The notes under the pieces were generated by a model. That model searched no databases and was not told the DNA's origin. It worked only from the letters and a program-made list of their open reading frames with translations. Positions 2,383-27,762 of a stretch of DNA of 29,949 nucleotides are shown here, piece after piece (position 1 is the first letter of the stretch; each line of letters opens with the position of its first letter). Source of the stretch: a virus; the IMG/VR virus record IMGVR_UViG_3300025154_002802, positions 1-29,949 of that record; one strand, written 5' to 3'. The position numbers were made by a program, and so were the translations under genes.

Positions 2383-3177
2383 TTAATCGCCCAGCCCCAA
2401 ATTTGTAAAACTGCCTGATTCATAAACCTGATGAACATAGACAGCCCTTGGAATTTGAATCAGGCAATTCTGGTCAGTACTTTTTTCATACCTGACCCAA
2501 AGGTATTCCCAGCCTTTTTTATCTATGCCTGATATTGAGCCTATCGTTATATTTGATTTGTTAGGGCTTGCAGCGAATTTGTAAGTTAACTCAACATCAC
2601 CAGTTCTGCTGTGCCTTGAACCTGATGCCCCCATAAATAAAACCTCTCCTGCCGCAAAACCGTGCCAGGCAGCATTATTAACTTTGCTGACAAGAGTAAA
2701 TATTGCAGATTTGAAACCATCATTTATCGAATCAAGACTTACCTGCCTTGTCTCACTAAAATTATATACAGGTACAATAATGTCTATCCCATTAACGCTA
2801 TTATCATCAACATTGATTGCCCCTTTAAAATCAGGCGGCTGGGTTCCATATGATCTAACTGTTAGAGGTGAGATAGTCTGCGTGATCTTTTGCGTTCCGC
2901 CGCCGGTATCAAAGTTATACTCAATATCATCGGTGTTTTTGCTGCCGTAGCCGTAAGTTACAGTGCCTATCCAGATTTTATCGGCGATTTGTTCGACGCT
3001 TCTGCCTGAACGAGGTACCTGGTTCCATGTATCAGGACAGCCTGCCAGCAGTGCATCCAACGCAGCAATATCATCATCGGTTCCCTGGATAATATATTCA
3101 ACGGTGCTTCCTTTACTGCTTCCGGTTGCAGTTTTCCTGAAAGACCATCTCTCAGCTACAGTAATTTCATCAGCCAT
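2383..3177 (-). CDS. Putative distal tail protein, unknown function
   Basis: This 264-aa protein starts at an ATG three bases after the tape measure stop. It is therefore probably translated by coupling, since its own ribosome-binding site is weak. The sequence is beta-rich and soluble, with no catalytic motif, signal peptide or transmembrane segment. In lambda-like order, the gene directly after the tape measure usually encodes a distal tail or tip component, so I suggest that role from position. The sequence alone does not prove it. It could also be a tail-tube-related protein, because its central part contains short alternating hydrophobic strands. Confidence 0.45.
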   Translation of the reverse strand: MADEITVAERWSFRKTATGSSKGSTVEYIIQGTDDDIAALDALLAGCPDTWNQVPRSGRSVEQIADKIWIGTVTYGYGSKNTDDIEYNFDTGGGTQKITQTISPLTVRSYGTQPPDFKGAINVDDNSVNGIDIIVPVYNFSETRQVSLDSINDGFKSAIFTLVSKVNNAAWHGFAAGEVLFMGASGSRHSRTGDVELTYKFAASPNKSNITIGSISGIDKKGWEYLWVRYEKSTDQNCLIQIPRAVYVHQVYESGSFTNLGLGD

Positions 3178-3180
3178 AAA

Positions 3181-5253
3181 CTAATCCCAAAACTCTGCAC
3201 CGCCGCCGGATGTATTATCTGCTATATCTTCAGTGGCCTGTGCTGTGCGCAGGGTTGCATCCGCAATTTTCTGCATCACACCGCCTGCCCCAAGCTGCGA
3301 TAAACCAAAAGCACTAAAAGTTCCGGTTGTAGATGCCTTTGTAAGACCACTCTCACCCTGCCAATCTTTTTTAGGCAGTAGGAGTGTTTTTGCTTTGGAC
3401 TCAACCGGCTCTTTAGCTTTTGCAATCGCTGCATTAAATTCATCTTTTGTTTTGGCAAGTTCATCGGCCACAGCTTTTTTCTCTGCAGTGTTGGAATCTA
3501 TTACATTTTTTAAGCTGTCTTCTACGTACTGATTAGCACCTGCCATACCGGAATCAAATTCAGCTTTTGATTGTTTGCGTCTGCCTTCTCTGCGGGCCTC
3601 AATTTCTCCTAATGAATCGTCTTTTTCTTTTTCAATTGCACTGCGCCTGGTATCAGCTTCTTTATCGATTTCTAAACGTTTATTATCCGCATCAACCTGT
3701 CGCTCTTGTTTATCCTGTGTGAAACTATCTTCTAATTGTTTTTCTGCAGATGCGGCGTCAAAACTGGAATCCGTGATTTTCTTCCACCATATCCATACCC
3801 GCATAAGTTTTTTTGCAACCCAATCAATAGTATCTGCCCACCACTGCTTAAAACCAACCCATATAGTTTTAAAAAACGCTACAGCATCGACCCATGCGGT
3901 TTTTAAAATAGCCCCAGCCCTTGTCCACACCTGGCCAATGAAGCCGACAGTTTCGGCCCAGGCTACTTCAATTCCATAAACTGCGCCGAACCAGGCAGCG
4001 GCAAGCGAATAAACAAGCGAGTACCAGACTTCCATAATAGTAAGTTTAATACTATTCCAGTAGCCAAGCATCCATTCTTTAGCTCTCAGCCATTCGGTTT
4101 TTACAAAAAGCCAGCCAATACGTGCAGCAAGACCCAAATCACCTTTCGCAAATGCAGCTGAAATACCGCCTATCGCATTTGTAGCATCCTGTTTTAATGT
4201 GTTGAAACATCCGCCAAGCCAATTAAGCAACCGACCGCCGTAACCTGTAAAATATAAAAACACTCCTGTCAAAGCGACAACAGCAGCAGTAACTAAACCA
4301 ATTGGTGACATTAAAAACGCCAGTCCTGTTTTCAAAGCAGTAAAGCTGCCTCTGATTATTGCAAACGATTTGCCCGCGAAGATCATGGCATTTCCAAATA
4401 CGACAAATGCTCCTCCTGCTGCAATCAGACCAGCGCCGACAAAAAGGGCTGTTTGAAACAAACCTCTATTCTCCTTGATCCAGTTAGATATTTTGCCAAC
4501 GATTATGGCAATTTTATTTGATAGATCCGTAATAATCGGGGCAATTGCAGCGCCGATATTTGCAAATGACATCTTTATTGTTCGCCACATACGATTTAAC
4601 GCATCATTAAGTTCCTCAGAAGCCATGGCATCTTCACTTGATAAAACAAGACCAAGCTGTTTAGCTTCATTCATCAATTCGTCTAAACCTGCTGCGCCTT
4701 TTTCAAGCATAGGCAACAGTGCCGTTCCGCTTTTGCCAAGTAATTTCATAGCTATCGCTGCACGTTTCGATGGATCTTCTATCTGGCTGATCCTATCGGC
4801 CAGAAGACGGAACTGCTCCTCCGGCTTCAAACCGGAAAATGACGCAGCACTAACACCGAGCATTGCAAAAATATCAGTCGTTGTTTTTAAGCCCATATTA
4901 GCGTCAAGGATACTCTGCTGCATTTTTCGGATACCTTTTTCGACAGTTTCCAGGCTGCTTCCTTCCTGTTCTGCCGCAAATCCAAGCGCACTTAAAGATT
5001 CAACTCCAACACCTGTCCGCTTAGACATTTTTGCAATATTATCGCCATATGTAGAAAAATATTTTGCAGCACCGATAAGAGGCCCCATTATCGCAGTTCC
5101 AATGCCCATCATTTGCCTGCCCATTGCCGAAACAGATTGCCCCCATTTTTTTACGCTAATCTCTGCTGCTCGCAATCCGCGAATTAATGGACTTCTATCT
5201 GCAAATAGTTCGACATATGCAGCGCCTGCTTTTATTGCACCTGAATTTGCCAT
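3181..5253 (-). CDS. Tail tape measure protein
   Basis: This 690-aa protein sets tail length and is the longest tail protein here. The ATG at 5253 follows the upstream stop by one base (TAA-T-ATG) behind GAGGGA. The N-terminus (~1-160) is helical and carries the segment TGVGVESLSALGFAAEQEGS, typical of the family. Residues ~265-350 are strongly hydrophobic and glycine-rich, the membrane-inserting part of tape measures. A Trp-rich helical stretch with imperfect repeats follows (~380-510). Residues ~520-590 form a highly charged predicted coiled coil (K/E/D/R-rich). The two-frame chaperone pair lies immediately upstream, as expected for siphophages. At about 0.15 nm per residue, the general rule predicts a tail of roughly 100 nm. 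The virion is therefore long-tailed and non-contractile, since no sheath gene is seen. Confidence 0.9.
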   Translation of the reverse strand: MANSGAIKAGAAYVELFADRSPLIRGLRAAEISVKKWGQSVSAMGRQMMGIGTAIMGPLIGAAKYFSTYGDNIAKMSKRTGVGVESLSALGFAAEQEGSSLETVEKGIRKMQQSILDANMGLKTTTDIFAMLGVSAASFSGLKPEEQFRLLADRISQIEDPSKRAAIAMKLLGKSGTALLPMLEKGAAGLDELMNEAKQLGLVLSSEDAMASEELNDALNRMWRTIKMSFANIGAAIAPIITDLSNKIAIIVGKISNWIKENRGLFQTALFVGAGLIAAGGAFVVFGNAMIFAGKSFAIIRGSFTALKTGLAFLMSPIGLVTAAVVALTGVFLYFTGYGGRLLNWLGGCFNTLKQDATNAIGGISAAFAKGDLGLAARIGWLFVKTEWLRAKEWMLGYWNSIKLTIMEVWYSLVYSLAAAWFGAVYGIEVAWAETVGFIGQVWTRAGAILKTAWVDAVAFFKTIWVGFKQWWADTIDWVAKKLMRVWIWWKKITDSSFDAASAEKQLEDSFTQDKQERQVDADNKRLEIDKEADTRRSAIEKEKDDSLGEIEARREGRRKQSKAEFDSGMAGANQYVEDSLKNVIDSNTAEKKAVADELAKTKDEFNAAIAKAKEPVESKAKTLLLPKKDWQGESGLTKASTTGTFSAFGLSQLGAGGVMQKIADATLRTAQATEDIADNTSGGGAEFWD

Positions 5254-5254
5254 A

Positions 5255-5488
5255 TTAAAATTTTCCCTCGAATGCTTCTTTAAACAATTTTCTGGATTCC
5301 TGGTCTTTGACTTCAATAACGTTTGAACGTTTGCGATTCTTTACGAAGTATGGATTAAAATCAGCCGGGCAGAATGTTTTCCCTTTTTTCGGGTCGCTGT
5401 TTATATTACATAGTAAAGCCATTAATGAAGAAACCCTGTTCCATTCCATGCGGTCGCGAAACTCAATTGCCTGGCTCATCCACCACAA
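5255..5488 (-). CDS. Tail assembly chaperone, T-like part, probably made by -1 frameshift from the upstream gene
   Basis: The interval given is the part after a possible TTG start, but the frame stays open upstream to beyond 5689 and lies at -1 relative to the upstream chaperone gene. No ATG with a good ribosome-binding site opens it. Downstream of the overlap it reads IWRTVYTIAGFLGVDPAP and then TLRELWWMSQ, followed by ALLCNINSDPKK and FCPADFNPYF. Patterns like these are familiar from small proteins encoded just before tape measure genes. In lambda the equivalent gpT segment is made only as a gpG-T fusion by -1 frameshifting and recruits tail tube subunits to the tape measure. Here the fusion would be 241 aa if slippage occurs at the T-rich heptamer. 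An independent weak start at TTG 5488 or the ATG at 5479 cannot be excluded. Confidence 0.65.
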   Translation of the reverse strand: MWWMSQAIEFRDRMEWNRVSSLMALLCNINSDPKKGKTFCPADFNPYFVKNRKRSNVIEVKDQESRKLFKEAFEGKF

Positions 5489-5532
5489 TTCACGCAGTGT
5501 CAGCGGCGCGGGGTCAACGCCGAGAAAGCCTG

Positions 5533-5979
5533 CTATTGTATAGACGGTGCGCCAAATATTTCCGTCAGCTTTTTGTCCAAGTCGATTTGAGCCAGATTCT
5601 GCGTCACCTGCGCAATCGCCAGATTTATCATCTTCTGCTGAGTCGCTGCCGCTTTGGCCCTGTCGGTTCGACCCCGTTTCTGGAAAAAATCGATCAGTTC
5701 GTCGTAAAAGACCGTCTGAGCAGCCAGTATCACATCACCGCCAATACTCTGGCCAAACTGCTCACTTGTTATATTTAATGAATCCGCCTGAGGCTTGATA
5801 AGACAATAGAGTACATCGCACAATAAAAATTCATCTGTGCCAAGCCTTGTTATCAGTGGCGGATCACCAGCCTCCGGTTCCAGAAGATTTATACCGAGTA
5901 AATCACGCACTCGCTTTGCGCTATCAATTGTCAAGCTAAGAGTCCATGTTCTGCCTGCGTTATCTGTAAAAGTTTTCAT
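5533..5979 (-). CDS. Tail assembly chaperone, G-like
   Basis: This 148-aa protein begins at ATG 5979 behind GAGG, just after the tail tube gene and a structured gap. The N-terminus (FTDNAGRTWTLSLTIDSAKRV) and the central LLCDVLYCLIKPQADSLNIT belong to a type of small phage protein that sits between tail tube and tape measure genes. By analogy to lambda gpG it would coat the tape measure before tube polymerisation. The C-terminal ~50 codons overlap the downstream frame, with the stop at 5533. Within this overlap there are two possible slippery sites. The zero-frame C-terminus is helical and looks like genuine coding sequence, so the overlap seems to code in both frames. Confidence 0.75.
   Translation of the reverse strand: MKTFTDNAGRTWTLSLTIDSAKRVRDLLGINLLEPEAGDPPLITRLGTDEFLLCDVLYCLIKPQADSLNITSEQFGQSIGGDVILAAQTVFYDELIDFFQKRGRTDRAKAAATQQKMINLAIAQVTQNLAQIDLDKKLTEIFGAPSIQ
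5569..5575 (-). other. Second candidate -1 slippery heptamer (C-AAA-AAG)
   Basis: Read on the minus strand in the chaperone frame, this is C AAA AAG, 12 codons before the G-like stop. The A-site lysine codon AAG could re-pair as AAA after a -1 slip; the P-site fit is imperfect (AAA to CAA). It is less canonical than the T-rich site at 5683-5689. It does lie where lambda-type slippage normally occurs, near the end of the first gene. Confidence 0.35.
5683..5689 (-). other. Candidate -1 slippery heptamer (T-TTT-TTC)
   Basis: On the minus strand, codons 97-99 of the G-like gene read GAT TTT TTC. This gives a perfect X-XXY-YYZ heptamer in register (T TTT TTC). From this point the -1 frame has no stop for 142 codons and runs through the T-like gene to 5255. 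A slip here would give a 241-aa fusion with a hydrophilic Gly/Ser/Asp-rich linker. Confidence 0.45.
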
Positions 5980-10799: not shown

Positions 10800-12701
10800 T
10801 TATATTTCGCCCTTGAACTTTACAGCGCCGCGGAAATCTTGCTCACGAACACCGAAATCAATGAAGCCCCTGAACTGAATACCGAGTGTGTTAAAATCAG
10901 CATCAGTTTTCTCAACTATTGGCTGATCGATTCCATTGAGGAACGCAACTTCCAAAGCAGGAAGCCTGTTAGGATCTGCAAACAGATACCATGCCTTTGA
11001 GCTGTAGCCCGTAAATGATGAGTTACTCAAATAACTGCTCGATACCACATCATATTTGCCTATATGAGGATTGGATGATGGTTTACCTTTGTTTGCTGTG
11101 GTTGTTTCATTCAGCATTGGTGATTTCATCAGCAAATCAGCCGGAACGCGAAGAGCCGTCGGTACAAGAATTATTGATGGCTGAATGCCAAGCGGCTTGC
11201 CGTTTGGCTTAGTCTGTTCGCCAAATACAACTTCAGCATCTGTCAATGAATCACCGGACAATGCAGTATCTGCGCCATCCTTAAAGTTCTTATGTGCCGC
11301 CGAAAAGAAGCTCGATGGATTGGATAAAAGCAGTGCCCATACTGCATCTGCGATAGCCTCTGCTGCTCCCATACCAATTTGCCTTGGAACATCTGTAAAT
11401 GCAGCCAAGTCATCATTGATAATCATCTGGCGGGTTAGTGCAAACATGATACCATGGGTATCAGCCTTCTGGCCGTACTTCTGCTCATCAATTTTACCGT
11501 GTTTCAATTCCCCATCAGCGCCAACCTGCTCGAACTTAAAACTACCAGTCATCCGGTAGCGGCTGTGCTCTTTAAAGTCATTAACGCTTGCAATCTTGCA
11601 GATTTTACGCCAGGCATCCTCGATATAGCTATAACCTTCGAGTAACATTTTATTTGCTACATTGGAAAGTATCCCCGGAAGCGATGCAGTACTAAATGCC
11701 GCTGAAAGCCAGGCCGAAGCATCGCGCCTAAATCTTGGAAGCTGCATTGCACAAATCTGCTCACAGTATTCCTGGATACCAATGCCGCGGAGTTTATCCG
11801 CCTGCTCAAGTGTCTGATTGTCATAGAATTTTTCCAATCGCGAACCTGCAATACCTGAAGCCATCAATGCCACCGCTTCATAAACCTTTGGTGTTGCAGT
11901 GATTTTCTGCGAAGTGATAATATTTACATTGGGTCTCGACGCCCTCAAAACCTCAAGCTCGCATTTAGGCTGGTCCCAGCCTTCTGCAATTGCCTTTGCC
12001 TCGATATCATCGTACTTACCAGAGCAGATTTTTTTGATGGCGGTAATGCGAGTAGTTTCAGCTGCGGCCGCTGCGCGAATATCTGCAATTGTAGTTTCCG
12101 CGGTGATGGTTGTTTCTTCTTTTTTGTTTGTTTCCTGATTTTCCAAATTTTCCATAGTTTGCTCCTGAAAATTAGCGGCTATTGTTGCCGAAGTATTATT
12201 ATCTGCGCCGAGGGTTACAAAACTTATCTCACCCAACATTGATTTACGTGCGATATTCAGTGGTCCGGTAAATTCTTTACCGTTTACAGAAACATTTTGA
12301 CCTGCTTTTATATATTCAATCTGCTCTGCTCTTGCGCCAATCGATGCCTGCCAGTTAAAACCTTTATCAGCCAGTGCAATTACGCGTTGAACTCTGGGTG
12401 AGTCGCCGAGTACCACACCTGCGGCTACGAGATTGTTTTCCACAATATTCACATGGTCAGTCTGGCCGAGCAAATCATCAATATCCTGGTTATGGCTGAT
12501 AAATATCGGCCGCGATGAACTGCCTTTATTTAAACCTTGCAAATCAATAACCACTGGACACTTCCAGCCTTCGAGCATCATCGGCCCACCCGTATATGCA
12601 GTCATTGAGAACCGCCTATTCTTGGGTTTTTCGTTTTCGGCTAGTACCGCTGCTGCCTCGATACTGAAATTTGCTGTGATGTTTAATTTATTCTGACTCA
12701 T
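10800..12701 (-). CDS. Fused prohead protease and major capsid protein
   Basis: This 633-aa polyprotein starts at ATG 12701, overlapping the portal gene by 14 bases behind GGAG. Residues ~40-170 resemble the prohead serine protease (HK97/S78-like) fold. Candidate catalytic residues are H70 (ISHNQD), S120 (WQASIGA) and E158 (LGEISFVTLGAD). Their spacing is close to the His-Ser-Glu of HK97 protease. A charged linker at ~180-215 is rich in Glu, Lys, Thr and Asn. The remainder is a capsid domain with a conserved C-terminal region: PSIILVPTALRVPADLLM, YLFADPNRLPALEVAFLNG and DFGVREQDFRG. Mature capsid protein is expected after protease action. A separate internal start at 12155 may produce the capsid part directly. 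The fused arrangement is known in several phage families. Confidence 0.85.
   Translation of the reverse strand: MSQNKLNITANFSIEAAAVLAENEKPKNRRFSMTAYTGGPMMLEGWKCPVVIDLQGLNKGSSSRPIFISHNQDIDDLLGQTDHVNIVENNLVAAGVVLGDSPRVQRVIALADKGFNWQASIGARAEQIEYIKAGQNVSVNGKEFTGPLNIARKSMLGEISFVTLGADNNTSATIAANFQEQTMENLENQETNKKEETTITAETTIADIRAAAAAETTRITAIKKICSGKYDDIEAKAIAEGWDQPKCELEVLRASRPNVNIITSQKITATPKVYEAVALMASGIAGSRLEKFYDNQTLEQADKLRGIGIQEYCEQICAMQLPRFRRDASAWLSAAFSTASLPGILSNVANKMLLEGYSYIEDAWRKICKIASVNDFKEHSRYRMTGSFKFEQVGADGELKHGKIDEQKYGQKADTHGIMFALTRQMIINDDLAAFTDVPRQIGMGAAEAIADAVWALLLSNPSSFFSAAHKNFKDGADTALSGDSLTDAEVVFGEQTKPNGKPLGIQPSIILVPTALRVPADLLMKSPMLNETTTANKGKPSSNPHIGKYDVVSSSYLSNSSFTGYSSKAWYLFADPNRLPALEVAFLNGIDQPIVEKTDADFNTLGIQFRGFIDFGVREQDFRGAVKFKGEI
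12153..12166 (-). promoter_or_regulatory. Internal ribosome-binding site and ATG for the capsid domain
   Basis: On the minus strand AGGAG (12166-12162) precedes an in-frame ATG (12155) with a six-base gap. Initiation here would give 451 residues beginning MENLENQETNKK, i.e. the linker and capsid domain without the protease. The spacing and sequence are as good as those of many real starts in this window. Confidence 0.55.
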
Positions 12702-14106
12702 CGTCTTTCTCCGTAATTGAAGTAGATATTTTTTCTGGCGATATACCCAGTTCATTCATTAGCTTTTTTTCTCGCGCCCGCTGGTAAAGTTCGACTTCCC
12801 AGTCCTTGCCTTGCTTTGCATATTCATCCGCCAAGGTTGTTGTGTGATTGGAAAGCCTCATTTCCTGAGCTTTTGCCTCTTTGGCTGGATCGACATGCTC
12901 AGTGCCATCCCAAAACCACTGATGGGGGAAACGGCGGATTGTTCGCCAATTAAGCGGCAGGTAGTCAGAGATTAGAATCGCTTCATCGAGCCATGCCTGC
13001 AAAATGCGATCGAGTACAACCATCGCCATGTCAGCCTGATCCACCCGGATACTTTTGTAATATGTCTGATGATCAAGCCGGCCAGAGGCATAGTTGTAGC
13101 CCGATGAATTACACGCCGCTATATTAAATGGCATATTCAGACACCGAGCGATCTCATTTAGAATCTGGTTTTTAAATTCTCCGTATGTAGTCGTTGGCTG
13201 ATGCGCTTCTATCTGACCCAGCTTCCAACCATCAGGAAGCGTTGTTGCCATTCTTTTTTCAAGCTGAACTACATCCATCGGCTCTAAATTAGCAGCCTCG
13301 CCATTTGCCGGGCTATCCGTATATAAAACCGCTGCAAAATCTGCGGCTGTTTCCGCTGCGGCAATAACAGCAAGTGTATATCTTCTAAGCTGTGCAAATA
13401 ATGGCAGTGCTGGTGTGATTTCCGGAATCCCGCGGCTCTGGCCGGGTCTTTCAGCCCTGAACCAATGAACCATAGAGCCGGAATCGACAGTGTTATAATC
13501 CTGCTCAAAAGCAAGAGACATCGAACCCGGATGATTTTTGAGAACGAAATAATTGGCAGGATTGCCGAATTCATCAAATTCAATACCATCAACTTGTGAT
13601 TGCTGATTAAAATATTTCGACCAGGGTGTGGTTACCTGATCAGCTTCAACGAGTCGAAGGTCAAGTTTTACAGGCGAGTTTAAATTACGATTTATTGACA
13701 GGATTCCAAATGCCTCACCATCAGCGGCTCTCGCCATTCGCATAGTGCGAAGTTTTTGGGCAAGGCGGATTTGAGAAGCCCAGTTCATAAACTCTGTTTC
13801 GATGATCCTGTTGCCATGATCGTCATCAGTTAACATCTGAAGTCTTGGGCCTGTTCCAACTACATCATTTGCCAGAGTAGAAATTATTCCTTTGGCGTAG
13901 CTGTTATTTGCAACTTCATAGCGAGAGCGGTTGCGAAGTGTCTTGCGAACATCAATATTTGCAGCGCCATCAGCAGAAAGCGAATCAGCATTAGCCCAAT
14001 GCCGCTGATTATCAGCGGTGGTCTGGGCAGCATCGAACCTTGCCTGCAGGATTCGTCCTGCAGGATGATAAACCTTTTGCTTTTTATTTTTGCCGAAAAA
14101 CCACAT
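12688..14106 (-). CDS. Portal protein (lambda-type)
   Basis: This 472-aa protein forms the dodecameric ring at the capsid vertex through which DNA is packaged. It starts at ATG 14106, two bases after the preceding stop. The N-terminus has Y-H-P-A-G-R, then RKTLRNRSRYEVANNSYAKG followed by ISTLANDVVGTGPRLQ, a hallmark of lambda gpB-like portals. Later come VDGIEFDEFGNPANYFVL, then WFRAERPGQSRGIPEITPAL, and FNIAACNSSGYNYASGRLDH, all family-typical. Its length is slightly below lambda's 533 aa. It sits between the small gpW-like protein and the protease-capsid gene, the usual order. Confidence 0.93.
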   Translation of the reverse strand: MWFFGKNKKQKVYHPAGRILQARFDAAQTTADNQRHWANADSLSADGAANIDVRKTLRNRSRYEVANNSYAKGIISTLANDVVGTGPRLQMLTDDDHGNRIIETEFMNWASQIRLAQKLRTMRMARAADGEAFGILSINRNLNSPVKLDLRLVEADQVTTPWSKYFNQQSQVDGIEFDEFGNPANYFVLKNHPGSMSLAFEQDYNTVDSGSMVHWFRAERPGQSRGIPEITPALPLFAQLRRYTLAVIAAAETAADFAAVLYTDSPANGEAANLEPMDVVQLEKRMATTLPDGWKLGQIEAHQPTTTYGEFKNQILNEIARCLNMPFNIAACNSSGYNYASGRLDHQTYYKSIRVDQADMAMVVLDRILQAWLDEAILISDYLPLNWRTIRRFPHQWFWDGTEHVDPAKEAKAQEMRLSNHTTTLADEYAKQGKDWEVELYQRAREKKLMNELGISPEKISTSITEKDDESE

Positions 14107-14108
14107 TA

Positions 14109-14306
14109 CTAAACCGTTCCTGATGGAGATAACTTTGAAAACTTAATGCCCAGACCTTTACGCTGCGCCGCAGTTTTACTTGCCAGATATTTATCTGCCG
14201 CAATCTGCTCAGAGAGCGGATGCTGCTCGACGGAGACCCCGTCGCTGGAAACTTTTGCTGGTGAGTTTAAATTTTCTTGAATTATGTTTTCAATTTCATT
14301 CGACAT
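14109..14306 (-). CDS. Small gpW-like head-joining protein
   Basis: This 65-aa protein lies between the terminase block and the portal, where gpW or similar small connector proteins usually occur. The start ATG at 14306 lies 12 bases after AAGGA on the minus strand, a slightly long spacing. Features are an acidic N-terminal helix, a VSSDGVSVEQHPLSEQIAAD segment and KYLASKTAAQRKGLG near the end. It is the first gene after the 39-bp promoter-like element at 14318-14356, so the structural genes may be transcribed from here. The gpW assignment is inferred from size, order and the 'DGxSV' turn. Confidence 0.55.
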   Translation of the reverse strand: MSNEIENIIQENLNSPAKVSSDGVSVEQHPLSEQIAADKYLASKTAAQRKGLGIKFSKLSPSGTV

Positions 14307-14317
14307 AAAAAAAATTG

Positions 14318-14356
14318 TCCTTCTATATAGTTAGTCGAATGAGGATGGGTGAGTTT
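14318..14356 (-). promoter_or_regulatory. Phage promoter-like element, copy A
   Basis: This 39-bp element matches 26969-27007 at 35 positions. Read on the minus strand it contains TCACCC, a 17-bp spacer and TATATA, inside TAACTATATAGAAGGA, which is identical in both copies. It lies in the short gap before the gpW-like, portal and capsid genes. Both copies point leftward toward a gene cluster. The -10-like box and exact 17-bp spacing indicate a promoter; the -35-like TCACCC is not the usual TTGACA. Confidence 0.6.
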
Positions 14357-21351: not shown

Positions 21352-23646
21352 TTATTCCTCCACCAGGTGATAGCCTGTTCCCTTATTAGTTTTAGTGGGA
21401 ATAGCTATTATTTCGATATCTCCTTGTTCACTAAGTGTATCTATGATATTGCGGAAATTGGCCTTATCGATTTTCATGCGTTTCATAAGCACACTATGCA
21501 ACAGTGTTCTTTGATCCGCTTGGCGAAGTTTTTGCTTTAGTTTCAAACAAAGTGCATGAAAATCATTATCAGCAACATAGCATTGAGAAAGATAAAGCAT
21601 TCTTCGAAGCTGGTGTGTCATAAGTGCAACAGACCATTTTGCAGCAGCGGCGCTGATTAAGGGTGATAAATGGCTTTCACTGCAGGCATAAATCAGCGCC
21701 AGCTTGCGGGCATTTTCATTTGCCCTTCCCCAAACGGTTTTTGAGACTTCATCATTACCATCCTCTGCTTTTGAATACTCCTCGTCGGCAAATACTCTAA
21801 AATCATCGAGAATGCGTTTGCCCTCATCAGAATAATCCACGATTACCGGAATAGGATTTACATCGATAAGATTATTAGGTTTGCCTGGATTAAAATCCCT
21901 CCACCATTTTGCAATCTCGAGAATTTCATTGGGCATCGAATCAATAAGACCTGCATCCTTGCCCGTTGAGCGTTTGCCCACATCGATAGTTACCATTCTT
22001 GCGATAAAACCATTGGTAAGCATTCTTTCACTAAGAGCAGCGTAATAGTAAGTGGGTGTAGCAGTGCCAAAAATAGTCAGATGAGGCTGGTTTATAAATC
22101 CAGCCTGCTGTTTCCCGGCTTTTCGGCGCATGGGGTAAACTGAATTGCTGGATGTGTACATTGTCAGAAGCGTTCCCATGATGCTCTCTAAATGACCATC
22201 ACGGCTCTTGTTGAATGATTGCAGCATGGTATCAATTTCATCATTCTGAAAAAGCATGCACGGTGTTTGAAACATCGCATCCTGTAAACCCTCGCCGGAA
22301 GCGAATTTATCTCCAAGGCTGTTCATCTCGCCTATTTGATTAAGGATATAAGCATTAATTTTTCTGGGATAATCTTTACCGGTTGATGCACCGGCAAGAG
22401 CCAGGATATAAATATTGGGCCGAAGATCGCCTTTTTCGCGAACCTTTCGGCCGCATAGATAAGACTGCCCTGCCAAACTGCCACAAAATGCCATAGGCTG
22501 ATTTGGATATGCCGAGATTTGCATGCAAAAATCCATTACCCGTGACATAAAGCCAGGCACACGCAAAAGCTCAACTGGTATTGGACCCGGATCGATAAAA
22601 CGCTGTATTTGCTTATCTTCTTTTTCAAATGATTTGACCAGTGCGGAAATGTTTACATCGGTTGGCACTTCAATGTTTTTTTCACCGAAACCTTTTGTTG
22701 CCAGTGTCTGTGCTGCCTTGCTGTAATCACCATTATGTTCCAAGAGCGTATAAACACTGAAAGGCGAGTATGCCTTTTCGCTTTCAAATGGATGTGCATT
22801 GGTAGAAAATACATAAAAAACTCTGTTTTTAAGTGTTGCGGAAGTTCCGGTTGTTTTACCTGGCCTGCACCAATGCTCATTTTCACCTGCCTGGTAACAT
22901 TGCCAGTCATGTTGCAATAAAACAGCCCTTAAATCGCCGTTGAAGTTATAATCGTCACCTGGTCGAAGCGAACCGCTTGGTGATGATTGCGTTTGCTGAG
23001 GCTCAAGCGGTTCTGGAACATACTCGTTTAAAGATAATGCCGCACCAAGAAGTATATCCCGCTCCTCAGGCGATATTACAGGTATATTTATAAAATCATT
23101 TTGAACCAGTTCATAACCCGGTGTTGGCGCACATAGAAATAATCCACCTTCGCCGCGAGTTTCAATATATGTTGGCAGGATATACCATGTTCCATCTTTG
23201 TTCTGGATTGGCTTAAATGTCTTACCGCATAAAATTACTTCATCGCCAGTGTCTATTGTTATTTTGCGTTTGGCAAGCTTAAGGCTTTTGCATATCTCTT
23301 CCTCGCAGCGGTAAATAACATGTCGACCGCCCGATTGAGATTTTTCGATAACAAGCCGGCCAAGTAGATCGGGCAATTCTTTTTTGACTATTGCCTGCCA
23401 TGGATCGAACATCTCAGCCGCAATATCAAAATCTATCATCTCAAGGTTGCGGGAGACTTTACCAGTCACGATACATACACCATTATTTTCGTTGTTGAAC
23501 CAGCTTTGCAGTTCACAGTCGTATGGAAGCCGCTGCTGATATTGTTTCCATTGTGATAATGCGGCGAACTTAAGCTGTACGTTAGCCGGCAGAACTGAGA
23601 GACCAGTATGTAAATATGAAAAAGATATTTCTTTAAGGTTGGGCAT
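21352..23646 (-). CDS. Primase-polymerase with C-terminal ATPase (DUF3987-like) domain
   Basis: This 764-aa replication protein starts at ATG 23646. The N-terminal domain has the bifunctional primase/polymerase pattern: SQWKQYQQRLP, then GVCIVTGKVSRNLEMIDFD with the metal-binding D72/D74, and SGGRHVIYR with H109. The central part (~200-350) links to an ATPase of the DUF3987 type. Its nucleotide-binding loop is ALAGASTGKD (416-425), and FQNDEIDTM (~466-474) is a Walker B candidate. The usual Ser/Thr after GK is replaced by Asp, a pattern I believe is tolerated in this family. Helicase and primase functions are thus fused, as in satellite and phage replication proteins. It likely initiates phage DNA synthesis, possibly at the adjacent 21038-21351 segment. 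Confidence 0.8.
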   Translation of the reverse strand: MPNLKEISFSYLHTGLSVLPANVQLKFAALSQWKQYQQRLPYDCELQSWFNNENNGVCIVTGKVSRNLEMIDFDIAAEMFDPWQAIVKKELPDLLGRLVIEKSQSGGRHVIYRCEEEICKSLKLAKRKITIDTGDEVILCGKTFKPIQNKDGTWYILPTYIETRGEGGLFLCAPTPGYELVQNDFINIPVISPEERDILLGAALSLNEYVPEPLEPQQTQSSPSGSLRPGDDYNFNGDLRAVLLQHDWQCYQAGENEHWCRPGKTTGTSATLKNRVFYVFSTNAHPFESEKAYSPFSVYTLLEHNGDYSKAAQTLATKGFGEKNIEVPTDVNISALVKSFEKEDKQIQRFIDPGPIPVELLRVPGFMSRVMDFCMQISAYPNQPMAFCGSLAGQSYLCGRKVREKGDLRPNIYILALAGASTGKDYPRKINAYILNQIGEMNSLGDKFASGEGLQDAMFQTPCMLFQNDEIDTMLQSFNKSRDGHLESIMGTLLTMYTSSNSVYPMRRKAGKQQAGFINQPHLTIFGTATPTYYYAALSERMLTNGFIARMVTIDVGKRSTGKDAGLIDSMPNEILEIAKWWRDFNPGKPNNLIDVNPIPVIVDYSDEGKRILDDFRVFADEEYSKAEDGNDEVSKTVWGRANENARKLALIYACSESHLSPLISAAAAKWSVALMTHQLRRMLYLSQCYVADNDFHALCLKLKQKLRQADQRTLLHSVLMKRMKIDKANFRNIIDTLSEQGDIEIIAIPTKTNKGTGYHLVEE

Positions 23647-23663
23647 AGTTTTTTTTCTTTGGA

Positions 23664-25340
23664 TTAAAAAGGAATTTCATCGTTAAGTGGAACAAACTCC
23701 GGTAAAGGCTTGTTGAACTGCCAGTCAGAAGCTTCTGTATCTTCGAATTGATAGCCGGCTATTTTGTCGAACTTCTGGCCTGGTACATTTTTTACTGTTA
23801 TTTTTAGAGGTTCTCTGAGCCTTCCATTTTGCGCAAAAAATACTGCCATATCAGATTGGTCAGGCACAGTTTCATTGGACCTTTGGTTCCACCAAACTTC
23901 AGCTTTCTGGCGTGCGAAGCCACTGTGCTCAAAACAGATCCATTCAGAAATATAGGTAGCAAAAGCTATTTTATATTGCACTCGCATGGTTCGAGGCGAT
24001 TCGGTTTTAGCACTTTTCTTGGTATGCACATTGTAGAGAACCTCCTGAACCTCGTATTCATTGACACTTGTTTGGTCGGACAATATTCCTTCGGTACTGG
24101 CAGTGGTTTCATGTTTGGCTTTCTCCGGCGGTGGAAACTCGTATCCACAAGCGGGACATCTTGCATAGGCAGCATGGATGATTTCAGAACATCCGGGACA
24201 TTCTTTCGCAGGTGCCTCTCCACTGCCCCTGACCGCTGTATCTGTGACCCGCAGGCAATCGACAGGACCATGACGAAGAATATTCCCACCAAAATCAAGA
24301 ACGAGACAATCTTTTTTATTTTCATGTAATCTAAAACCCCTTCCTACCATTTGGTAATAAAGGCCCGGTGACATCGTCGGGCGCAACATTGCTATACAAT
24401 CGATATTAGGTGCATCAAAGCCTGTTGTTAAAACATTTACATTGCAGAGATACTTGAGATTTCCGCTTCGGAAATCATCAATCATCTTCTTTCGCCAGCC
24501 ATCTGGACTATCGCCGCTGACGAAACCACAATCAATATTATGATTTTCCTGGAAAATTCGCTGAATATGTTTTCCATGATCAACACCTGCGGCAAAGACG
24601 AGAACCGCATTTCTATCCTGTGTATATTCGAGTATTTCAGAACATGCGGTCCTGACACGAGTGTCGGTATCCATCAAATCTTCAAGCTCAGTTGAGATAA
24701 ATTCGCCCCCGCGAATATGAAGACCGCTTGTATCAATGCGAGTTTTTGACGCTTTGCTGCGTAGTGGACATAAATAGCCATCTCGAATAAGCTCTTTGAT
24801 GCCTACTTCGAAGCAAATTGAATTTAGAAAATGATCAGCCTGACATATCAGACCTGTTGTCATTCTAAACGGTGTTGCTGTTAAACCGACGACTCGCAGA
24901 TTAGGATTAACGACATGAGCATCACTAAGAAAACCTTGATACATTCCCTCGCCTTCCGGTGGAATCATGTGGGCTTCGTCAATAATGACCAAATCAAATG
25001 GATCGAGCTCAAAAGCTTTGCGATATATAGACTGAATTCCTGCTATAATTATCGGGTGCTCTGTGTCTTTTCTTTTCAGCCCCGCTGAATGAAGCCCGAC
25101 ATGCAGCTGGGGTGCTATGCCGGCAAGAGTATTATATGTCTGCTCTAAAAGTTCTTTAACATGCGCCAATATTAAAACTCTGCCGTTCCATATATTGACA
25201 GCGTCATTGCATATCGTCGCCATCACAGGCGTTTTACCGCCACCTGTCGGGATCACGATGACGGGATTGTCATCGTGATTCCGCAAATGACTATAAACAG
25301 CATCAACTGCTTGCTTTTGATATGGACGAAGTTCTATCAC
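23664..25340 (-). CDS. DEAH-box superfamily 2 helicase
   Basis: This 558-aa protein starts at GTG 25340 behind AAGG and overlaps RusA by 38 bases. Motifs are in order: Q-like RPYQKQAV (5-12), motif I PTGGGKT (31-37), motif II DEAH (121-124), motif III GLTATPF (~153) and motif VI QMVGRGFRL (~346). A C-terminal four-cysteine zinc motif (CPGC...CPAC) follows, resembling RadD/SSL2-type helicases. After it comes a ~140-residue tail ending in PEFVPLNDEIPF. It probably unwinds or remodels branched DNA in replication or recombination, next to a Holliday junction resolvase. Confidence 0.9.
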   Translation of the reverse strand: MIELRPYQKQAVDAVYSHLRNHDDNPVIVIPTGGGKTPVMATICNDAVNIWNGRVLILAHVKELLEQTYNTLAGIAPQLHVGLHSAGLKRKDTEHPIIIAGIQSIYRKAFELDPFDLVIIDEAHMIPPEGEGMYQGFLSDAHVVNPNLRVVGLTATPFRMTTGLICQADHFLNSICFEVGIKELIRDGYLCPLRSKASKTRIDTSGLHIRGGEFISTELEDLMDTDTRVRTACSEILEYTQDRNAVLVFAAGVDHGKHIQRIFQENHNIDCGFVSGDSPDGWRKKMIDDFRSGNLKYLCNVNVLTTGFDAPNIDCIAMLRPTMSPGLYYQMVGRGFRLHENKKDCLVLDFGGNILRHGPVDCLRVTDTAVRGSGEAPAKECPGCSEIIHAAYARCPACGYEFPPPEKAKHETTASTEGILSDQTSVNEYEVQEVLYNVHTKKSAKTESPRTMRVQYKIAFATYISEWICFEHSGFARQKAEVWWNQRSNETVPDQSDMAVFFAQNGRLREPLKITVKNVPGQKFDKIAGYQFEDTEASDWQFNKPLPEFVPLNDEIPF

Positions 25341-25692
25341 GTTGCATACACCTTATTTTTACTATTGTTTTCCCGCCTTTGATTGGTTCTTTCATAACGG
25401 TGGTCAGATGTTTAATCTGGCAATCATTAAAAAAGGCCCTACCTTTTTCCAAAGCATCAAGGAGTGGCTTTTGAATATTGTCAATATCGCGCTTTCGCCT
25501 ATCCGGCGGGTATGCCCTTACCTTCATTGCGAGCATACCCGTCATCGGTCGAACCTTCGCTGCCATAAGGGCTATGCAAACTTTTCTGCGAAACCTGATG
25601 CCATCAGCCCCTATAAACGTCCTATTCCCCCGCCGCTTAAAATAATGATTAATACTTGGCGGATATGGCAGCTCTATTGTCAGCGTTTCCAG
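25303..25692 (-). CDS. rusA: RusA-type Holliday junction resolvase, probable CTG start
   Basis: No ATG, GTG or TTG exists between an in-frame stop at 25746-25744 and position 25567. A CTG at 25692 follows a strong AAAAGGAG with a seven-base gap and gives METLTIELPYPPSINHYF, aligning with the N-terminus of E. coli RusA (ITLPWPPSNNRYY). From this start the catalytic aspartates are D69, D71 and D90. E. coli RusA uses D70, D72 and D91, a constant offset of one. Lysine 75 and the RDIDNIQK motif also match. The ATG at 25566 would remove 42 conserved residues. Total 129 aa, near the family's 120. It cuts four-way junctions during phage recombination. The CTG overlaps the end of the DUF669 gene by 13 bases. 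Confidence 0.9.
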   Translation of the reverse strand: METLTIELPYPPSINHYFKRRGNRTFIGADGIRFRRKVCIALMAAKVRPMTGMLAMKVRAYPPDRRKRDIDNIQKPLLDALEKGRAFFNDCQIKHLTTVMKEPIKGGKTIVKIRCMQRDRTSSISKASS

Positions 25693-26132
25693 GGAGCGAC
25701 TCCTTTTGCAGCTGGAGGATTTTGAGCAGCAGCGTTTTCGCGTTTACTGAAAGCCTTGATTTCATTGGCAGGTTCACCGGTATCGTTTCGCTTCTTTACC
25801 ACAACTTTGATAACTAGCGGTAAATTATGCAACTCTGTGCTATCCTTGGGCACCATCACTCCGACGGCTTTGCAAATTGCAGCCAACTGACTCTTTGCGA
25901 TTTTCACTGTCGTATCATTCTGATTTTCAAGGCTTAGCCTTGACCAGAGCAGGCGATTCTTGTAGTCGCCTTCGATGATCTCAAATTTCAATTCGAGATA
26001 GCTGCCATTTCCGTTTTTGGCCGCTTTCATTTCACTGTCCACAATCACTGCAGGATATTTTCCCGCTGGTATCGGATCAAAATCGGTTGCTGCTTCGACA
26101 TTATTTGCATTAAAATTATTCAGATTAGCCAT
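25680..26132 (-). CDS. DUF669 family protein, putative single-strand DNA-binding partner
   Basis: This 150-aa protein overlaps the Sak4-like gene by eight bases at its start. It shows DUF669 features: FDPIPAGKYPAVIVDSEMK, then GNGSYLELKFEIIEGDYKNR, LLWSRLSLEN and a C-terminal 'LVIKVVVKKRND..EPANEI' beta region. A Pro/Ala-rich basic tail ends in APWKR. Proteins of this family are encoded beside phage recombinases and are thought to act as single-strand-binding or annealing partners. Its place between a Sak4-like ATPase and RusA supports a recombination role. Confidence 0.85.
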   Translation of the reverse strand: MANLNNFNANNVEAATDFDPIPAGKYPAVIVDSEMKAAKNGNGSYLELKFEIIEGDYKNRLLWSRLSLENQNDTTVKIAKSQLAAICKAVGVMVPKDSTELHNLPLVIKVVVKKRNDTGEPANEIKAFSKRENAAAQNPPAAKGVAPWKR

Positions 26133-26925
26133 TGTTTACATTCTCCAGATTGGTAGTTTCTTGATTTGAATTGCTATTGAGCGCGTTGATAAACGCATCC
26201 CACGAGAGAGGAATTTCGTACGGAAGATTGTAGCGGTTTTTGGCAATACAAGATGGACCGCCAACAGTACGAATAACCCGCTCACCGCCATCTTTGCCAA
26301 GGCCTACAGCAATGGTTCTCTCTTTTCCAAAACCTATATTTTCAGATTCGGTTCTGAACTTGCGGGTTGCAAATAATACTGCATCCGCCCATTCGGTTAA
26401 AAGTGCTGTGGCATGTTTGTGCATACGTGGCGTATATCTATCGTAAGCACTGGATTCCGGGTCTTCAAATCTCTCGACCTTTGCGTGCGCGATAAGTATC
26501 ACTGCCATATTCCGTTCAGTTCGCAATGAATCTAAAGCATCGACAATCTGTCGCCAGAAAGCTAAAGCAGCGGTGTAACCACGAGCAAAACCACCATCAA
26601 CTTTTTCAATCGAACTTACCCCGGACAATCGACACAGTTCCTCCCAAATAAGCTGCTCCAGCCAATCGCATGAATCTACAATTACTGTTTGATAATCATG
26701 TTTCTCGATTGCTAATGCCGAAAGATATGCTTCCACATCGCTGTATTTTTTCGCAATTGGAAAAGATGCACAATCTATTTCACCTAAACCATCTTCTGTA
26801 GGAATAAAGATAGGATTAGGTGCATTTGCTCCGAACGTGCTTTTGCCGACACCCTCAACACCATAGACCATCAATCTGGGAGGCATTTGGCGTTTTCCTT
26901 TATGGATTTGATTAATTACTGACAT
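26125..26925 (-). CDS. Sak4-like RecA-type recombination ATPase
   Basis: This 266-aa protein is the first gene of the leftward replication operon, with ATG 26925 behind AAAGGG. It has Walker A GVEGVGKST (22-30), Walker B-like TVIVDSCD (about 80-87) and a later ILIAHAKVERFEDPES that is a RecA-fold sensor strand. This pattern (AAA_24 / Sak4-like) is common in phage single-strand annealing or recombination modules. The DUF669 gene overlaps its end by eight bases, the usual pairing. It is preceded by a 16-bp palindrome and promoter-like element B. Confidence 0.85.
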   Translation of the reverse strand: MSVINQIHKGKRQMPPRLMVYGVEGVGKSTFGANAPNPIFIPTEDGLGEIDCASFPIAKKYSDVEAYLSALAIEKHDYQTVIVDSCDWLEQLIWEELCRLSGVSSIEKVDGGFARGYTAALAFWRQIVDALDSLRTERNMAVILIAHAKVERFEDPESSAYDRYTPRMHKHATALLTEWADAVLFATRKFRTESENIGFGKERTIAVGLGKDGGERVIRTVGGPSCIAKNRYNLPYEIPLSWDAFINALNSNSNQETTNLENVNNG

Positions 26926-26954
26926 AAAAACCCTTTCATTCGATTATTGGTTTT

Positions 26955-26970
26955 GAAAGCTGCAGCTTTC
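26955..26970. repeat. Perfect 16-bp palindrome in the leader of the replication operon
   Basis: GAAAGCTGCAGCTTTC lies just downstream of promoter-like element B and 30 bases before the Sak4-like start. In RNA it would fold into a hairpin close to the 5' end, and in DNA it has the symmetry of an operator. No T-run follows on the minus strand. Confidence 0.5.
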
Positions 26971-27007
26971 CTTCTATATAGTTATTCGAATGAGATTGGG
27001 TGAGATT
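26969..27007 (-). promoter_or_regulatory. Phage promoter-like element, copy B
   Basis: This is the second copy of the 39-bp element (35/39 identical to 14318-14356). On the minus strand it has TCACCC, a 17-bp spacer and TATATA within TAACTATATAGAAGGA. It directs leftward toward the replication genes. CATTCGA at 26937-26943 and its inverse at 26986-26992 flank the box, as in copy A. Confidence 0.6.
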
Positions 27008-27036
27008 GAAACAACATTAAAATTTTTTTGAAAATC

Positions 27037-27150
27037 ACGTTAGTAATACATTAGTAATATTACTAACGTTTTACTAACGTTGGCGATTTTTCCGTCAATG
27101 TTTTACTAACGTTAGTAATAATTCACCAATGTTGGCACTAACGTTATTGT
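27037..27150. promoter_or_regulatory. Operator array of TTACTAACGTTAGTAA-like palindromes
   Basis: Half-sites ACGTTAGTAA/TTACTAACGT recur in this AT-rich segment between divergent genes. Copies are ACGTTAGTAATA (27037-27048), the 16-bp palindrome TTAGTAATATTACTAA (27051-27066), TTACTAACGTT (27071-27081), the perfect TTACTAACGTTAGTAA (27103-27118) and CACTAACGTTA (27136-27146). Such arrays usually bind a dimeric repressor or an initiator protein cooperatively. Confidence 0.75.
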
Positions 27151-27243
27151 TTTCACAAACGTGATGTCCTACATACTCACACCTTTAAATCCTGCATAAT
27201 CCATCCAGTCGTTAACAACAAAATCTTAAAGAAAGGTAAAGTT

Positions 27244-27762
27244 ATGAATGCAAAAGAGATTGTGCAGAATTACAAAGATGTCATTAGTCCAACCAAAATA
27301 GCAATTATCATTGCAAGAGCCAAAAAGAATGGATTGCCGGAAGACATGGTTGAAGATGTCATTCAGGATGTAGCATTGGAAATAATTAATTTTAATTATG
27401 ATCCTGAAAAATCTAATGGTGCCACTGAAACGACTGCACTTACCGCAATAATTGATCACAAAATCATAGATATAGTTCGGCGAATTGAATTCGAGAAAAA
27501 TTTTTGGGAAAGAGAATCTCATACCATCGAAATGGAAGCTGATGAGCTTAGACCTCTGCAAATGTCAATGGACATACAATCAGCGTTAAAAGCATTATCT
27601 CCAATTGAACGGCAAATATGTATGAAGCTTATAAACTGCATGACTATCAATGAAATTGCACAAGAAGAAAAATGGGGGTATGCAAAAGCAAAAAAGATTG
27701 TTGCAGGCATTAGAAGCAAATTAGCAGGGATGAATTTGAAGAATTATATTGATGAAAAATAA
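27244..27762 (+). CDS. Phage sigma-factor-like protein (ECF type)
   Basis: This 172-aa protein is transcribed rightward from the operator region, with ATG 27244 behind AAAGG. Residues 31-82 resemble sigma region 2: LPEDMVEDVIQDVALEIINF and TALTAIIDHKIIDIVRR. Residues 117-160 resemble region 4: ALSPIERQICMKLINCMTIN then EIAQEEKWGYAKAKKIVAG, a helix-turn-helix. No region 3 or anti-sigma domain is present, which is the ECF layout. It may direct host RNA polymerase to phage promoters such as copies A and B. A simpler DNA-binding regulator with a sigma-4-like HTH is the alternative. Identity is by pattern; function is an inference. Confidence 0.75.
   Translation: MNAKEIVQNYKDVISPTKIAIIIARAKKNGLPEDMVEDVIQDVALEIINFNYDPEKSNGATETTALTAIIDHKIIDIVRRIEFEKNFWERESHTIEMEADELRPLQMSMDIQSALKALSPIERQICMKLINCMTINEIAQEEKWGYAKAKKIVAGIRSKLAGMNLKNYIDEK

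Follow-up and report, generated by a model that had tools for sequence, protein, structure and literature searches.

The question raised by this locus is whether a sigma-like protein encoded by a phage reads two near-identical promoter-like elements in the same genome, one of them adjoining its own gene. The window, which is the whole stretch of DNA analyzed here, comprises 29,949 bases and is a record of IMG/VR. The hosts of this phage are Planctomycetes bacteria: the assembly of Planctomycetes bacterium GWF2_41_51 holds a prophage essentially identical to the window, with a sigma-like protein that is 100% identical, and the GWF2_42_9 assembly (G002) holds a related prophage, C71, whose sigma-like protein is 62% identical to that of the window. 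The reading we favor, at a probability of roughly 0.85, is that the phage makes an ECF-like sigma factor with two dedicated bipartite promoters, and that sigma and promoters are exchanged jointly as one specificity set. The features on which this reading is built are collected in Table 1.

Table 1 Positions of the genes, elements and repeats considered in the window
Feature	Position	Strand	Evidence and role
Capsid/protease fusion gene	10800..12755	-	Downstream of element A; PHROG 4523, E 1e-87
Portal gene	12688..14106	-	Second gene after element A; PHROG 21 portal, E 2.3e-61
65-aa conserved gene	14109..14306	-	Directly 3' of element A; anchor for site A in relatives
Element A	14318..14356	-	Probable; candidate sigma-dependent promoter of the 65-aa, portal and capsid genes; lineage-specific element at the same site in relatives
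Remaining replication cluster (DUF669, RusA-like, helicase, primase)	21352..26132	-	Read from element B
Sak4-like AAA ATPase	26125..26925	-	First gene after element B; PF13479, E 1.1e-47; PHROG 124, E 3.6e-45
Element B	26969..27007	-	Probable; candidate sigma-dependent promoter of the replication/recombination operon; same place in relatives, adjoining the sigma gene
ACTAACGTT / TTAGTAAT repeat cluster	27040..27145		Between element B and the sigma gene
Sigma-like gene	27244..27762	+	172 aa, ECF-type, two domains; TIGR02937, PHROG 1740, AlphaFold model

The sigma-like protein and the two elements of the window

The initial annotation had called the 172-aa product sigma-like from its letters, and both profile comparison and the predicted fold bear this out, placing the protein with the ECF-like sigmas. 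The TIGR02937 sigma70-ECF profile matches residues 25-160 with an E-value of 4.7e-8 and 32.8 bits, below the curated cut-off of 42.9, which is reached by the sigma-like proteins of ten relatives' records; PHROG 1740, an RNA polymerase sigma factor family, matches with an E-value of 2.2e-5, and Pfam offered no family for the product. A moderately confident AlphaFold model (five sequences, mean pLDDT 67.9) contains two helical domains and a low-confidence linker. The leading PDB matches of this model are sigma factors, mostly of the ECF type, with Foldseek probabilities of 0.96-1.00 in the top 15, and the C-terminal domain gave Z 8.2-8.4 and 1.4-2.5 Å over 56-61 residues; the TM-scores against PDB entries are low, which may reflect a different arrangement of the domains. 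As the profile matches and the leading PDB matches are all to sigma factors, assignment of the predicted protein to the ECF-like class is well supported even though the curated cut-off is missed. No match to the window sigma was returned by tblastn against cultured phages, and searching viral contigs by profile with the sigma relatives brought up nothing new.

The two 39-bp elements are near-identical as had been described, with 35 of 39 positions agreeing on direct reading of 14318-14356 against 26969-27007, and the string TCACCC-N17-TATATA occurs without mismatch exactly twice in the window, at these two elements and both times on the minus strand. A scan of the entire contig with the 300 bp that lie upstream of the 65-aa gene gave 33/36 for the best 36-mer repeat in the window, compared with about 23-25/36 by the same scan in relatives without a repeated element. 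Across the 4.8-Mb host genome with the essentially identical prophage, the element core is found only at these two sites with up to 3 mismatches allowed; genome-wide, the core is confined to the prophage in G001 and to the prophage and a satellite-like element in G002. Both copies are kept in the closest relative, prophage C71 of GWF2_42_9, and copy B is also kept in contig L003. Rfam contained no family matching either element, and an exact scan of viral contigs gave no matches because the element is lineage-specific.

Two details of the initial annotation need correction. Each element had been placed in front of a leftward gene cluster, which holds for copy B, upstream of the replication cluster that runs from 26925 to 21352; copy A lies inside the structural cluster, in a 54-bp gap that follows TerL and a 64-aa Zn-ribbon gene and precedes the 65-aa, portal and capsid genes, so that these head genes may already be transcribed from upstream across the cluster. 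TCACCC and TATATA had also been read as the promoter hexamers in general terms, and they do not constitute a fixed consensus, since both differ in C71, the nearest relative, which has GAGACC or AAGACC at the first position and TATGTA or TATACA at the second. Exact -35 and -10 hexamers cannot be assigned, as the lineages differ from each other and conservation continues to about +20 of the alignment anchor.

Several further sequence features surround the elements. Inverted repeats are present at both copies: TCATTCGAC/GTCGAATGA at copy A (14300-14348), where they overlap the beginning of the 65-aa gene, and TCATTCGA/TCGAATGA at copy B (26900-27000). A translational hairpin was considered on account of such inverted repeats in the start regions of the window copies and was rejected, as the nearest relative (L003) preserves them only in part. 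A resemblance to CTATAGAGGG had suggested a T7-like promoter; this was set aside, as conservation extends upstream by about 40 bp and a single-subunit polymerase was not noticed. The ACTAACGTT and TTAGTAAT repeats, similar ones of which occur in L003, form a cluster that is possibly an operator array or a set of iterons, controlling the sigma gene or replication.

Co-occurrence of the sigma gene and the second element in related phages

Site A was located in relatives by way of the 65-aa gene, which served as anchor in the 39 phage contigs or prophages that carry it, many of them fragments, and the 90 bp upstream of each such gene were compared with the rest of its contig, that is, with long stretches or whole contigs. 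A second copy of the contig's own lineage-specific element was found beside the sigma gene in 19 of the 19 contigs with a sigma and in 0 of the 20 without. The 19 do not amount to 19 independent events, since several lineages contribute sets of close relatives; distinct element types among them number about a dozen. Element A precedes the 65-aa gene, with the portal gene downstream, in all 19 of these phages by sequence. A search of related phages for joint presence of gene and element had been proposed at the outset, as had the converse search for the element in relatives that lack the gene, and among the contigs checked no counterexample was seen.

The individual cases are consistent with each other. 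For the 17 contigs whose sigmas were found by profile or tblastn, the best repeat reached 21-24/24 in 16, in the same orientation and 39-275 bp from the sigma gene, and in the seventeenth (G035) the second copy lies just after its sigma with 3 mismatches in 22. In G030 the order of discovery was reversed: a strong second copy was noticed first, and a divergent sigma gene missed by the profile was then found there, at 4717-5244, oriented as in the window and encoding a protein 24% identical to the window's; L196, a further relative of the G030 sigma, likewise has its element at that place. In prophage G001:C100 the A half was examined first, and the sigma and copy B predicted from it were then found in the remainder: the sigma is 50% identical to that of G004, and the second copy of the prophage's own element lies between this sigma and Sak4. 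A further copy, the third in this prophage, stands in front of AlpA-like and integrase genes. The best match in the 20 contigs without a sigma was 17-19/24, which serves as the empirical background.

A sigma-type copy A stands without a sigma gene in G013, G019, C31, G021, G023, G034 and G042, and the copy-B region is absent from these contigs; G039 is a similar case, in which the contig begins just past the copy-B region. Where the copy-B region is present without a sigma, as in G005, G006 and G051, there is no repeated element, and a tRNA-Met gene occupies site A. A phage sigma factor had been regarded as unusual for a temperate siphophage; it is no rarity of this one phage and recurs across the group in many specificities.

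Other observations were made in these genomes. A tRNA-Met(CAU) gene takes the place of element A in the sigma-less contigs L025, L027, L029, L031-L035, L038 and L039, and in sigma-less relatives this gene ends a few bases before the 65-aa start codon. G046 (2448-3700) has two sigma-like genes in tandem, of which only the second is close (43-44%) to the sigma of G028/G031, and its element type resembles theirs. Elements also lie before AlpA-like/tyrosine integrase genes in G004 and C100 (G004 35008, plus strand; L227 3171, minus strand), and a broken copy of such a cassette with its element is found in G001:C125 (L123 1470, minus strand). The G004 helicase (L115 7227-9938) has about 345 additional residues in its N-terminal part compared with the window helicase, a segment that by placement and shape looks intein-like.

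Footprint, joint exchange and competing readings

The A/B pairs of 11 lineages were aligned on the downstream block, with registers set by eye. Identity between the two copies is concentrated in blocks at -20..-11 and -2..+20 of the anchor, with 33% between them, and this two-block footprint with a spacer has the layout of a bipartite promoter. Sigmas and elements differ wholly between lineages while the two copies within each phage are alike, such that in 11 of 11 lineages a phage's own B was the best partner of its own A. In a comparison of 18 phages, the similarity of the elements tracks the identity of the sigmas (Spearman 0.67; Mantel p 0.0002 with permuted labels) and does so equally when portal identity is held constant (partial 0.67, 18 phages), compared with 0.14 for element similarity against portal identity and a partial value of -0.11 in the same 18 phages.

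Natural replacements point the same way. Between G032/G035/G041 and G033/G036/G037/G038/G040, portals are 93-99% identical over aligned residues, sigmas are 22-24% identical, and the elements are unrelated at both sites. Pairwise DNA alignments of G041 with G037, G032 with G038 and G035 with G040 are colinear at about 87-88% identity; each is broken for 170-200 bp at site A, with the match returning at the start codon of the 65-aa gene, and at the other side the colinear match starts close after copy B. The window and G004 are a further example, in which Sak4 is 89% and the portal 85% identical, the sigmas are unrelated, and both elements have changed.

From these data we strongly infer that each sigma recognizes the promoters of its own phage. 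The pairing of sigma and elements proposed in the initial annotation is thus backed by co-occurrence (19/19 against 0/20), co-variation and natural swaps; binding of core polymerase by the 172-aa protein, the start of transcription at the elements and its timing are what we infer beyond this. In the mechanism we propose, the ECF-like sigma made by the phage would redirect host core RNA polymerase to the two dedicated promoters. Copy B would start the replication/recombination operon, and copy A would provide additional transcription of the head genes (65-aa, portal and capsid) from within the structural cluster. These bipartite promoters would each be specific to the sigma of their phage lineage, and recombination would replace the sigma gene and both promoters as one set while the rest of the genome stays.

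The most serious competing reading, which we consider improbable, is that the sigma-like protein is a DNA-binding activator behaving like ArpU or RinA, which recruits host holoenzyme with the host sigma kept. Late-gene activators with sigma-like or HTH folds exist in other phages, co-variation of a protein with its sites would look the same for an activator, and the TIGR02937 match of the 172-aa protein falls below the cut-off. Against this, both sigma domains are predicted in the model, and the footprint consists of two blocks at promoter-like spacing followed by a conserved start region. In addition, a constant host-type -10 would be expected across lineages if host sigma were reading the core promoter, and no such -10 is present.

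A reading that is much less probable still takes the elements for duplicated promoters of the ordinary host type, or duplicated ribosome-binding leaders, and the position of the sigma beside copy B for coincidence. While TATATA does resemble a -10 and GAAGG/GAGGG stands at the position of a ribosome-binding site before the start codon at site A, this reading is at odds with the presence of a second copy next to the sigma-like gene in all 19 cases and its absence from the 20 contigs without one, with elements that change completely between phages and stay alike within one, and with the satellite-like contig, where most of the elements have no start codon of a real gene after them. Finally, the location of copy A between the terminase and portal genes and the many copies in the satellite-like element could suggest packaging, origin or recombination sites whose recognition protein is exchanged with the sigma cassette, a reading with hardly any credence left, as both copies have the same direction relative to the genes that follow and lie shortly before the first of them, no gene other than the sigma adjoins copy B in all cases, and the third copy in C100 precedes AlpA-like and integrase genes and therefore fits transcription and not packaging.

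A satellite-like array and the relation to known systems

The phage-encoded sigma with its own promoters may also be of relevance to a second kind of mobile element. Contig G002:C191 (L106), 10.4 kb from the GWF2_42_9 genome, encodes an integrase that is cut by the contig end and 83% identical to that of G004, an AlpA-like protein (68%), a primase of Prim-Pol/D5 type, a WYL-type regulator and two sigma-like proteins, and comparison of the window structural proteins with the 10.4 kb of this incomplete contig gave no match. On this gene content, drawn from one incomplete contig, C191 is probably a satellite of the P4/PICI kind. Eight elements stand in tandem at 4900-5960, with a divergent sigma-like gene on one side of them and the AlpA-primase genes on the other; they are about 100-200 bp apart and all face the AlpA-primase genes. 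Six of the eight are best matched by the types of the window phage, C71, G004, G019 and C31/C100, scoring 28-40 points against shuffled maxima of 7-12; prophages C71 and C31 share a genome with C191. Among the host-genome relatives of the C191 primase that were examined, no clear repeat excess was found except in G106:C330, which has a single 20-nt repeat pair of a different kind.

The satellite P4 uses promoters that answer to the activator of its helper. C191 is like P4-like satellites and PICIs in its integrase, AlpA-like regulator and primase, and probably also, going by the 10.4 kb, in the absence of structural genes. It differs in the row of eight elements that precedes a single operon, six of these elements being best matched by those of several phage lineages. 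The array would be suited to sensing several helpers, in that the replication genes of C191 would be switched on whichever of several phages infected the cell, every one of them with a sigma of its own, and phages would escape by swapping sigma and promoters as a set. That such listening satellites drive the diversification of sigmas and promoters, with joint exchange as the escape, is a tentative suggestion to which we give slightly less than an even chance.

Phage late sigma factors such as SPO1 gp28, T4 gp55 and PBSX Xpf are the closest point of comparison for the main reading, as there too a sigma-type protein encoded by a phage redirects host polymerase to phage promoters, which for the window phage is a prediction; the kinship of the window sigma to this group rests on the PHROG 1740 match. 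The differences are that the window phage is temperate, that its protein is ECF-like with two domains and has two or three candidate promoters, one of them predicted to serve replication genes, and that specificity varies among close relatives and is exchanged as a set. Bacterial ECF (group IV) sigmas share the short length, the restriction to domains 2 and 4, the bipartite promoters and a gene adjoining one of its own target promoters, whereas no anti-sigma gene was recognized beside the window sigma, the targets here are phage operons, and sigma and targets are exchanged jointly. Another parallel is heteroimmunity in temperate phages, where groups of related phages are distinguished by a regulator that is exchanged together with its scattered sites, there a repressor and operators and here a sigma factor and promoters. 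Among open papers, a limited sample and hence weak evidence, we found neither an account of related phages exchanging a sigma together with its promoters nor one of such a promoter array in a satellite. Phage sigma factors are treated there in other settings, for example the sporulation-like sigmas of phages in PMC9429907.

In total, these related phages offer about a dozen predicted sigma/promoter pairs, all distinct from one another, as a naturally occurring panel from a phylum of bacteria whose known phages are very few. With such a panel one could trace the evolution of sigma specificity in a setting where no more than two or three target sites need to be altered. If the satellite reading is true, C191 would in addition document directly how a parasite evolved the ability to sense several hosts simultaneously, and how phages altered their transcription code in reaction to it.
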